Shown: piece by piece, positions 14,145-20,387 of the stretch | Layout of the letters: each line of letters starts with the position of its first letter | Numbering within the stretch: position 1 is the first letter of the stretch | Position numbers and translations under genes: made by a program | Notes under the pieces: generated by a model | Told to the model about the DNA's origin: nothing | The model's database searches: none | The model's input: only the letters and a program-made list of their open reading frames with translations | DNA from: Sedimenticola sp. | GTDB lineage: Bacteria > Pseudomonadota > Gammaproteobacteria > Chromatiales > Chromatiaceae | NCBI GenBank assembly: GCA_026983675.1 | Contig: JALSTP010000196.1 | Span: forward strand, 1 to 32,808 | DNA length: 32,808 nt | Direction: 5' to 3'

Positions 14145-15125
14145 ATGAGAGAACTGGTCGATCCCTTTGGCCGTAGAATCGAATACCTGCGCCTTTCGGT
14201 GACGGATAGGTGTGATTTTCGTTGTTTCTACTGCATCCCCAAGGGTTTCAAGGATTTCACCCCGCCCGATACATGGCTGTCGTTCGACGAGATTGAGCGC
14301 GTTGTGCGGCTGTTTTCCGAGTTGGGGGTGAGCAAGGTACGATTGACGGGCGGTGAACCGCTGGTTCGCAAGAATCTGCCGGAATTGGCCAGCCGCATCG
14401 GGGCCTTGCCGGGGATTCAGGACCTCTCGCTCAGCACCAATGCCTCCAGGTTGGCGAAGCACGCAGACTCACTCAAGAGGGCGGGCGTGGGGCGTATCAA
14501 TGTCAGCCTCGACTCTCTCGATGCCGACCGCTTCAAGGAGATCACACATGGTGACCTGGATAAGGTCATCGAGGGTCTTATGGTGGCCAAACGCGCCGGT
14601 CTCGATCCGATCAAGATCAACATGGTCGTCATGAGGGGTATCAACGACCATGAGATCGGCGAGATGGTGGATTTCTGTCTGCAAAACGATTTCACTCTGC
14701 GCTTTATCGAGACCATGCCGATGGGGGACACGGGGCGTAGGGCCACCGACCTTTACGTGGGACTGGATACTGTTCGCAGACGCCTCGAAGAGCAATTCGA
14801 ATTGGAGACGGCTGTGATGCCGGGGGGCGGTCCGGCCTCCTATGTCCGCGTCAAGGGGACCTCGCTCAGGATTGGTTTCATCACGCCGATGTCACAACAC
14901 TTCTGTGAAAGATGTAACCGCGTCAGGCTCTCCGTCGAGGGGACGCTCTTCCTATGTCTGGGTCAGACGGACAGGATGGAGTTGCGGCCCATGTTACGCT
15001 CGGGAATGGACGACGAGGCGTTGAAGGCGCAGATCATGGCCGCCATTGATCGCAAGCCGGAACGCCACGAATTCAACGAAAAACCGGAGCAGGTGGTGCG
15101 CATCATGTCCCTGACTGGGGGCTAA
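14145..15125 (+). CDS. moaA: MoaA, GTP 3',8-cyclase for molybdenum cofactor
   Basis: MoaA is a radical-SAM enzyme that starts molybdopterin synthesis by cyclising GTP, with MoaC acting next. I start at MRELVDPFGRRIEYLRLSVT, which has a purine-rich ribosome site just upstream; an ATG 63 bases earlier adds a leader not typical of the family. The product has 326 residues. The radical-SAM motif is CDFRCFYC, the C-terminal second cluster is in CERCNRVRLSVEGTLFLCLG, and the protein ends in the conserved Gly-Gly. NapA needs this cofactor, which explains the location. No other mo genes are in the window. The stop codon TAA is also the start of a short repeat. Confidence 0.96.
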   Translation: MRELVDPFGRRIEYLRLSVTDRCDFRCFYCIPKGFKDFTPPDTWLSFDEIERVVRLFSELGVSKVRLTGGEPLVRKNLPELASRIGALPGIQDLSLSTNASRLAKHADSLKRAGVGRINVSLDSLDADRFKEITHGDLDKVIEGLMVAKRAGLDPIKINMVVMRGINDHEIGEMVDFCLQNDFTLRFIETMPMGDTGRRATDLYVGLDTVRRRLEEQFELETAVMPGGGPASYVRVKGTSLRIGFITPMSQHFCERCNRVRLSVEGTLFLCLGQTDRMELRPMLRSGMDDEALKAQIMAAIDRKPERHEFNEKPEQVVRIMSLTGG

Positions 15126-15154
15126 CCCGCATTTCTTAGCGGATTGACGTGCCC
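15125..15154 (+). repeat. Short dispersed repeat, copy 1
   Basis: Thirty bases starting at the last base of the moaA stop codon match 18715-18744 at 25 of 30 positions; the first 12 bases (ACCCGCATTTCT) are identical. It may be the tip of an old insertion sequence or a repeat family of its own. No internal structure or matching second end was found, so the class is open. Confidence 0.4.
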
Positions 15155-15251
15155 TCGCTTGTTCTTTGGAAGTCCCGCCAATGGGTACTTGGACCCCTCA
15201 TTTTTAGACGATCCGGTGGGGCATTCATATCCACTGTAAATGCAGTGCGCT

Positions 15252-15419
15252 CTAGCCCGGATTATTTATGAATCGCCGCGATGATTGCACAGAGAATTGT
15301 CCGCACAGGGGATTTTCCGACCGAGTGGAATACGGGCTGTATTGCCGAGGAAGGAAAATTCCCTGTGTGGACAAGGATCAAGCAAGGGCGCGAGCGACTT
15401 CATGAATAATCCGGGCTAG
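15252..15419 (+). mobile_element. Family C MITE-like element, copy 1
   Basis: A 160-base core (15256-15415) lies between two CTAG tetranucleotides (15252-15255 and 15416-15419). Its ends are inverted repeats: CCCGGATTATTTATGAA on the left and TTCATGAATAATCCGGG on the right (one mismatch). The inside holds a second inverted repeat around ATTTTCC/GGAAAAT, so the whole unit can fold into a long hairpin. It carries no gene. The core is 155/160 identical to the reverse complement of 19392-19551, and all five differences are transitions. The right CTAG holds the stop codon of the neighbouring DsrE-like gene. The element with its flanks fills most of the gap between moaA and that gene. Confidence 0.88.
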
Positions 15420-15913
15420 CGTATCTCGTCGATGGAGAACCGCTTTTCGAAGATGCGGGGCGTGATGAGCGCATAGCCCTTGAGTTGCCAGTGCGCCAGC
15501 TCCGTCAGCGCCGACGGTACCAGCTGAATAAAGTCATAGAAATCCTTGGCGCTGTAGTCATAATCTTTCGCCGCCAGGCCGCACACTTTGAACTCCACGC
15601 CCAACTCTGCGTAGTAGCGCATCCTCTCCACGGCCTCCCGGTATTTTTCGTAGTTGTGCTCCACGGTGGTGACGATCTCGGTGCCGTGAATAACCACAAT
15701 AATGTGGTGATCGTCGATGGGCATGTCGTAGGGCGAGTCGCTGAGCGGGTTGACCAGTGAACGGATCCAGAATAAGGCACTGTTGATCTTGGCCGGTGTA
15801 TCCAGAAAGAAATCGAAGACCACTTTCTGAGGGGTATAAGGGGTTTCCACCACCTGTGCCTCTGCGTGGAGGATCATCGGCCAAAGCAGCAATAGGGTGA
15901 TAAACGAACGCAT
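15416..15913 (-). CDS. Secreted DsrE/DsrF-like protein
   Basis: The product has about 165 residues. I start it at MRSFITLLLLWPMILHAEA (15913), which is a signal peptide; AAGGA lies just upstream. The open frame extends further but the extra part is unlike a leader. The mature part resembles the DsrE/DsrF/YchN fold family: a first strand KVVFDFF, a central strand HHIIVVIHG, the segment RMRYYAELGVEFKVCG with the single conserved-type cysteine, and a final YALITPR strand. DsrE-like proteins often carry or move sulfane sulfur, but the substrate here is unknown. The stop codon TAG lies in the CTAG that borders a MITE. Confidence 0.75.
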   Translation of the reverse strand: MRSFITLLLLWPMILHAEAQVVETPYTPQKVVFDFFLDTPAKINSALFWIRSLVNPLSDSPYDMPIDDHHIIVVIHGTEIVTTVEHNYEKYREAVERMRYYAELGVEFKVCGLAAKDYDYSAKDFYDFIQLVPSALTELAHWQLKGYALITPRIFEKRFSIDEIR

Positions 15914-16066
15914 CGTCATCCTTTCATCGAATAACTGGTAATCAAATAATAGACCACCCTTCAGTGGTCGCGCCCTTGCGATCGACAGGGTTTTGGGTAC
16001 ACGATTGAAAAGCCTGCTCGACACCTCAATATTCGAATCAGGCCTGTACAGTAGGGTTCCCTTACC

Positions 16067-18686: not shown

Positions 18687-18714
18687 GGCGCGCTCCTGGA
18701 TTTTCTATCGGTTG

Positions 18715-18744
18715 ACCCGCATTTCTCACCGGATTGGCAAGCCC
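18715..18744 (+). repeat. Short dispersed repeat, copy 2
   Basis: Matches 15125-15154 at 25 of 30 bases, in the same orientation. It lies between the hemerythrin gene start and the family A repeat. Nothing else was recognised between 18687 and 18750 apart from the ribosome site of the leftward gene. Confidence 0.4.
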
Positions 18745-18750
18745 TTGCCT

Positions 18751-18953
18751 GGGAGTCTGTCGGATTTATTAACCCGGCAATAATATATATCGCATTCAGG
18801 GCTTCAGGCAGGCGCCGGAACAAGGCGCAGTGCGGCGGTCCATTTTTCCTCGCTTTTTCGTTGCGTAGGCCCACTATGCGCCTCAAAATCGAGAAAAACC
18901 GGCCTCGCCTTCCCACCATGCTCGCGATGATCATCTAAACCCGACAGGCCCCT
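18751..18953 (+). mobile_element. Family A repeat, copy 2, with inserted family B arm
   Basis: The unit is about 203 bases with imperfect terminal inverted repeats: 18751-18768 and 18936-18953 pair at 14 of 18 positions. Bases 18835-18868 match the window start (reverse strand, one mismatch). A further imperfect palindrome spans about 18838-18903, with TTTTTC and GAAAAA arms. Bases 18768-18832 are nearly identical to the left arm of the family B element at 27745-27809, so this copy is a mosaic. It encodes nothing. Together with flanks it occupies most of the 373-base gap between 18687 and 19059; 18954-19059 shows nothing I recognise. Confidence 0.6.
18768..18832 (+). repeat. Family B left arm fragment
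   Basis: These 65 bases match 27745-27809 with two mismatches. They begin at the same ATTAACCCGGCAA tip that borders the full family B element and end at CGCAGTG, after which the two loci differ. Only the left arm is present: no right tip (TTGCCGGGTTAA) follows. The fragment starts exactly where the family A tip ends, so it looks like a precise junction formed by recombination or a truncated insertion. Confidence 0.7.
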
Positions 18954-19059: not shown

Positions 19060-20387
19060 TTATGGTTCGCCGTAGAACCCGGCTGGCAGCAAGCTGGTGA
19101 CGAGCATCACGGCATTGATGTCGAGGTGATCCCGCCAGGTGGTAGCGCTTTGATGGTCCGGATCGAGCCAATAGTTTTCGAGCTCCTCGGCAAGGGGTTG
19201 CCGGCGGGCCAGGTGGGCAAGGAAAGGATTCGCCGGTGCGGGCAGCGTCCCGGCTGTCTGCTGCACCCAGGCTTGCAAGAGGGTGCATCCATGGAGGCCA
19301 ATGGCGAGTCCCAGTTCCCGGAAAGGAAGCCGGTCGTGGGCCGGGTAGGCGGCCTCCCCGCTGTCGATGAAGTGTTGCAGGCCGAGGCTAGCCCGGATTA
19401 TTCATGAAATCGCTCGCGCCCTTGCTTGATCCTTGTCCACACAGGGAATTTTCCTTCCTCGGCAATACAGCCCGTATTCCACTCGGTCGGAAAATTCCCT
19501 GTGCAGACAATTCTCTGCGCAATCATCGCGGCGATTCATGAATAATCCGGGCTAGCGGCCTGCAGGGCGGCGGGCAGGAGTTCCGGATGATCGGCCGCAC
19601 CAGTGAGTAACAGGCGTCCGTGGAGGACGGTATCCATCAGTAACCCGCCGATGCCGAGAGGATCCGTGGTGGCAAGGGCGCCTTGTGCGAGCATCTGCCA
19701 AGCCTCGTCGATCTCTCGGCGTAGCGGCTTGGTTTCGGTGTCAAAGCGCTTGGCAAGGGTGCTGAGTTCGTGATAGACGACCCAGGCGTCGAGGGCGTCG
19801 TGTTGGCCCATGGAGGGGACGAGGGGCCGGGTGAGATCGATGCTCATCTTCCAGTAGAGCCGGGGGCGCCTGTCCCCCGTGCGGTGGCAGAAGGCGCGGT
19901 GCGCAGTTCGGGCGAGTTCGATGCCCCAGTGCACGTATCGGGGATCTCCGCTCGTCTCCGCGGCACGCGCAAGGGCATGCATCCACTTGGTCAGATAGTG
20001 GAAATACTGGCCATCGCGCTCCCACTCCAGTTGGGCGTCGAAAGGGGCATCGGGTGGCCGCTCGTCCAGGGCCTTTCCAATGCGCAGGCCGCCGAGGGTG
20101 GGGTGCTCTCGTGCGGTCTCTTCGTCAAGGCCGCTGAGACGGGGACTGTCAGGCGTGCCGGGACGGGAACGTCCGAGGACGTCGTGTACCTGATCGATGA
20201 GATCAAGGGCGAGCTGCCGCCACGAGGTATCCTTTTCAGCCTCGGCCAGCCCCAACAGGTTGCAGACGGCAAAGGCATCGGTCCAGAGGTAACGCGAGGG
20301 AGGGCGGGAAGGGTCCGTGAGCCCCGTGCGCTGGCAGAAAGAGGTCATCATCGTCTCGGCGGTCCGCATCTCTTCCGGCGTGATCAT
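19060..20387 (-). pseudogene. Unknown protein gene split by a MITE (third gene of agmatine operon)
   Basis: The gene starts at MITPEEMRTAETMM, with its ATG overlapping the aguB stop (ATGA). It reads for 279 codons to LLPAALQAAS, then enters the family C element and stops after PDYS. Beyond the element the same protein continues as LGLQHFIDSGEAAYPAHDRL to a stop at 19060. Removing 164 bases (19388-19551, one CTAG plus the core) gives 1164 bases, exactly 388 codons in frame, hence 387 residues. I do not recognise the family. Segments such as RYLWTDAFAVCNLLGL and LTKWMHALARAAETSGDPRY suggest an all-helical alpha/alpha-barrel-like protein. The 5' part could still give a truncated product. Confidence 0.85.
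19388..19555 (-). mobile_element. Family C MITE-like element, copy 2 (gene-disrupting)
   Basis: A 160-base core (19392-19551) lies between CTAG at 19388-19391 and CTAG at 19552-19555, as expected for a 4-base target duplication. The ends are perfect 17-base inverted repeats (CCCGGATTATTCATGAA and its complement). An internal 15-base perfect inverted repeat, CACAGGGAATTTTCC with GGAAAATTCCCTGTG, lets it fold on itself. The orientation is opposite to copy 1, with 155/160 identity. No coding capacity. The element's end adds the residues PDYS and a stop codon to the gene it interrupts. The source transposase is not in the window; CTAG targets fit IS5-type (YTAR) or other 4-base-duplicating families. 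Confidence 0.9.

Follow-up and report, generated by a model that had tools for sequence, protein, structure and literature searches.

A 160-bp MITE with the ends of an IS1380-family element splits a conserved gene downstream of aguB in Sedimenticola sp.

The window, by which we mean the whole 32,808-nucleotide stretch analysed here (Sedimenticola sp., contig JALSTP010000196.1), contains a 160-bp MITE that has inserted into a conserved, enzyme-like gene and split it in two. Homology provided the decisive evidence, and with at least 40 copies of the element in the same genome the case for insertion goes well beyond chance. A full IS1380 element with the same ends and the same target is present in another genus, and an IS1380-family transposase acting in trans very probably moved the MITE, which inserted at CTAG and duplicated 4 bases. 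In the mechanism that we propose, such a transposase would recognise the non-coding MITE through its 17-bp CCCGG...CCGGG ends and mobilise it in trans; the MITE would then insert at a CTAG in the gene downstream of aguB, with 4 bases duplicated and the gene split. The move was presumably cut-and-paste, and resident IS copies, of which this genome shows the ends, probably mobilised the element. The features concerned are as follows.

19060 to 19387, minus strand: 3' portion of the split gene, now displaced (LGLQHF...FYGEP; 108 codons and a stop), with no start of its own; homologous to residues ~280-383 of relatives
19388 to 19391, no strand: target-site duplication CTAG, copy 1; its 4-bp nature comes from the flanks of other copies
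19392 to 19551, no strand: MITE, 160 bp, no open reading frame; near-perfect hairpin (-103.6 kcal/mol as RNA, z -14.8)
19392 to 19408, plus strand: left terminal inverted repeat CCCGGATTATTCATGAA, 17 bp
19535 to 19551, minus strand: right terminal inverted repeat, 17 bp, CCCGGATTATTCATGAA inverted, reading TTCATGAATAATCCGGG
19552 to 19555, no strand: target-site duplication CTAG, copy 2, counted as the gene's own (codons GCT AGC)
19536 to 20387, minus strand: 5' portion of the split gene, cut short at 283 aa: 279 native residues (MITPEE...LQAAS), then PDYS and TGA from the MITE
15256 to 15415, minus strand: second MITE copy in the window, with CTAG flanks at 15252-15255 and 15416-15419

The split gene runs along the minus strand from 20387 to 19060, downstream of aguB, and its ATG at 20387 shares the letters ATGA with the aguB stop codon. 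In the present DNA, the 5' part reads ...LQAASPDYS* and ends at a TGA (19536-19538) that lies within the MITE. Omitting the 164 bases from 19388 to 19551 gives an open reading frame of 1164 bases (387 codons plus stop) in which LQAAS is joined to LGLQHF, as the first-pass annotation had stated. Since a frame is restored by chance in one case out of three, this restoration taken alone is weak evidence for an insertion, and we therefore sought independent evidence in homologues. A search of related genomes returned full-length relatives of the joined protein at 46-53% identity, and 8 of the 9 that were aligned to the restored 387-residue protein cross the junction (...LPAALQAAS joined to LGLQHFIDSGE...) without a gap. 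The ninth (L061) is without the C-terminal part, but it is located at a contig break. Among 84,980 genomes scanned, at least 573 relatives were confirmed, and the best 80 of these 573 all align to about residue 380 or further. None of these homologues ends naturally at LQAAS, and the part encoded at 19060-19387 is present except in L061. The alignment thus bears out the earlier reading of a gene split by an element that moved as a unit, to which the dispersed copies also testify. A further suggestion, that the insertion is recent, is weakly upheld for the interval 19388-19555: both gene halves are still open, but of its 160 sites this copy has 4 that depart from the family consensus, which is the family median, and no empty site turned up in a strain of the same species or genus.

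No Pfam or NCBIfam model matches the protein family of the split gene. The structure model of the closest homologue (mean pLDDT 94.9) is an alpha/alpha toroid that matches GH76 enzymes and AGE-type epimerases (sugar 2-epimerases) only remotely, with a TM of ~0.5, and because of this remoteness we assign the protein no function. Across 80 homologue loci, no conserved link of the family to aguA/aguB could be found. The last 108 residues, removed by the insertion, make up over a quarter of the predicted toroid and include the invariant R298, F301, R302, E303, W352, D368, I369 and N370; because the lost segment holds these positions, the truncated product is likely to be inactive. Such a loss would be reversible if precise excision, as in the distantly related eukaryotic piggyBac, gave some members of the population the intact gene back. 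IS1380 and piggyBac have in common 4-bp duplications and 5'-CC..GG-3' termini (PMC10045372), and the two halves here have stayed open, but we found no demonstration of precise excision for IS1380 in the literature searched, and we consider a switch of this kind improbable.

The element has the usual make-up of a MITE: at 160 bp it falls within the range of short elements (30-300 bp), it is non-coding, with no open reading frame of 80 aa or more inside, and it has IS-like terminal inverted repeats, a target-site duplication and many dispersed copies. The length of the duplication had to be read from other copies, because CTAG contains TA and the window locus cannot separate a 4-bp from a 2-bp duplication. 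IS630 elements prefer CTAG and duplicate TA. An element of this type (IS630/Tc1-mariner) that duplicated TA alone and carried the neighbouring G...C, with CTAG-CTAG as target context, would leave DNA identical to that seen here. Across the genome, 22 of 52 paired MITE copies have CTAG on both sides, but other copies have the symmetric flanks CTAA/CTAA (L011), TTAG/TTAG (L110) and CCAG/CCAG (L095, and L096/L097, which we read as one locus on two contigs), so that positions 1, 2 and 4 of the tetranucleotide vary jointly on both sides, and TTAA, CTAT and GTAA occur in relatives. These symmetric variants rule out a TA duplication of the IS630 type, and the IS that carries these ends is an IS1380, not an IS630; the TA model is hardly tenable. 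The earlier claim that CTAG is the target duplication therefore holds as a 4-bp duplication, shown by the CTAA, TTAG and CCAG copies and not by this locus. The two flanks of some copies do not match, perhaps through mutation or through misassembly at the repeat.

The 40 or more full-length copies in this genome are 93-100% identical. Most are exactly 160 bp long; shorter derivatives measure 145, 97, 94, 82, 60 and 26 bp, the shortest consisting of two MITE ends joined and nothing else. The 16-base MITE end occurs 131 times at one mismatch or fewer, against 0 occurrences for the reversed control. A second gene, belonging to TIGR00341 (DUF389), is split by another copy (L002), and the model is matched over positions 2-325 of 325 across the junction. 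Beside the second copy in the window, a DsrE-like gene (15416-16024, minus strand) takes its TAG stop from the CTAG at 15416-15419. Of 41 copies, about 10 terminate an open reading frame of at least 200 codons, compared with 1 of 20 other CTAG sites, which is no more than suggestive of an excess of insertions at stop codons. A plasmid search with the MITE as query gave no match. CTAG is scarce in the window (8 sites in 32.8 kb, against ~23-117 expected under different models), and four of the eight sites flank the two MITE copies. Four contig ends (L012, L081, L015 and L026) have the MITE end minus its last bases joined to an identical TATATGGTCTCCTCCCG, possibly another IS inserting into the MITE end. 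In two half-length copies (L042 and L049), the sequence breaks off at an internal GAATACGGGC with TAG or CAG after it, as would happen if a pseudo-end within the element had served as a terminus.

Numerous contigs of the assembly break off within MITE copies and the flanks of some copies differ, as would suit an assembly chimera in which unrelated loci were joined at the repeat; at the split gene, however, the two flanks code for consecutive portions of a single protein family and have the 4-bp duplication in common, which makes a chimera very unlikely. That the two halves are open in their own frames would agree with an intergenic repeat that separates two genes or follows a gene naturally ending at LQAAS, but the homologues run through the junction as one protein, ruling out a natural end at LQAAS, and the 3' half, without a start, aligns to residues 280-383, so this reading deserves practically no credence.

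The link from the inserted MITE to IS1380 came from a class-wide pattern search, which found a complete 1680-bp IS in another genus (G302) with the left end CCCGGATTATTCATGAA, one difference in the right end and CTAG on both sides. Its transposase matches NF033539 (IS1380) with E=1.2e-108. The 17-bp terminal repeat of the MITE is identical to the left terminal repeat of this IS1380 and to IS left ends in the window's genome. CTAG likewise borders both sides of IS1380 elements from two more genera, whose ends are CCCGGATATTTCAC and CCCGCATTTCTCAC. Two contig ends in the window's genome carry the first 97 bases of a similar IS, which stop near the transposase start; one of these left ends reaches the start codons ATGAGTAATACTACC (MSNTT). 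At two other contig ends, a second kind of inward sequence stands behind the same end, giving two presumed IS right ends, and we read the four ends as two IS copies lost between contigs. A search with PF13701 found no whole IS1380 transposase gene in this assembly; the IS ends stop at contig breaks, and the assembly shows no contigs shorter than ~3 kb, which would explain the negative result. The MITE thus has the 4-bp duplication and CC..GG ends of the IS1380 type (PMC10045372) together with the 17-bp ends of a full IS1380, but at 160 bp, without a transposase and with a core of its own, it has the ends alone in common with that IS.

A different repeat lies at ~18753-18951, with the ends GAGTCTGTCGG...CCGACAGGC. 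In G302, a full IS with a similar end (GAGTCTGCGCG) and an adjoining CTAG encodes an IS1182 transposase. Like the MITE, the IS1182-type repeat of this genome (ends GAGTCTGTCGG..) is multicopy and sits at CTAG, and the MITE often directly adjoins it with one CTAG in common, but its ends and its transposase family are different.

Five other genera of the bacterial family contain relatives of the MITE that are 159-161 bp long and 70-77% identical. A covariance model built on seven sequences detected the 160-bp hairpin element in 18 of the family's 61 genera (40 of 204 genomes). Identical 4-bp flanks border 18 of the 38 elements examined: CTAG in 8, TTAA in 4, CTAA in 3, CTAT in 2 and GTAA in 1. 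TTAA is the target word of piggyBac, and its presence among these targets is a likeness to that element. In the seven-sequence alignment, 25 of 54 hairpin pairs have changed on both sides (51 cells in total), whereas one-sided changes that preserve the pair account for 2 cells. This suggests that the two hairpin arms are matched at the DNA level, because selection for an RNA hairpin should leave G-U intermediates, which are nearly absent. The lineage of equal-sized elements found across these related bacteria was previously unnamed. A nearly identical copy (97% in the core) occurs in a genome from another bacterial family (L067; G237:C56:17664-17829), where adjoining repeats are also common to both genomes; this copy reflects either horizontal transfer or a mis-binned contig.

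Terminal repeats vary from element to element and mostly agree within each. The window's MITE has CATGAA-type ends, matching the resident IS. Its core is 71-80% identical to those of six of the seven elements with CACC-type (CCCGCATTTCTCACC-type) ends, compared with 57-68% for CATGAA-type elements that do not belong to its own close group (G000 and G237). In the tree, it falls inside the CACC group with starred support, and two end changes, forced by starred branches, are needed. A single clade survives the AU test (p 0.14, and 0.08 for the inner core), and because of these values an exchange of terminal repeats is suggestive at most. We see about an even chance that a single old lineage of ~160-bp hairpin MITEs kept its length and core over many genera while its ends were exchanged to suit different IS1380 transposases; the window's family, with a CACC-like core and CATGAA ends, would be an example. 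Two remnants in the window (15122-15161 and 18712-18751) begin with CTAA/TTGA plus CCCGCATTTCT, the end carried both by a second IS1380 lineage (L208) and by this same MITE in its CACC-type version.

In being short, non-coding and multicopy, with IS- or transposon-like terminal repeats and flanking direct repeats, the element resembles the TIMEs (PMC4133298) and MITEAba12 of Moraxellaceae (PMC6382973). It differs from bacterial MITEs in general in that its partner is IS1380 and its ends change between lineages, with core and length constant. We found no description of an IS1380-linked MITE in the literature searched, and IS1380 is unmentioned in a 2024 review of prokaryotic MITEs. The insertion as such is ordinary; the interesting part is the equal-sized MITE lineage with changing termini. 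Here, a high-copy bacterial MITE that breaks at least two genes is tied to a named transposase family through its ends, its target and the length of its duplication. Given the distant kinship of IS1380 with piggyBac, a set of related elements that target CTAG, TTAA, CTAA and CTAT is useful material on target choice in the IS1380/piggyBac superfamily, and an equal-sized lineage with changing ends makes the change of transposase by a non-autonomous element a testable question.
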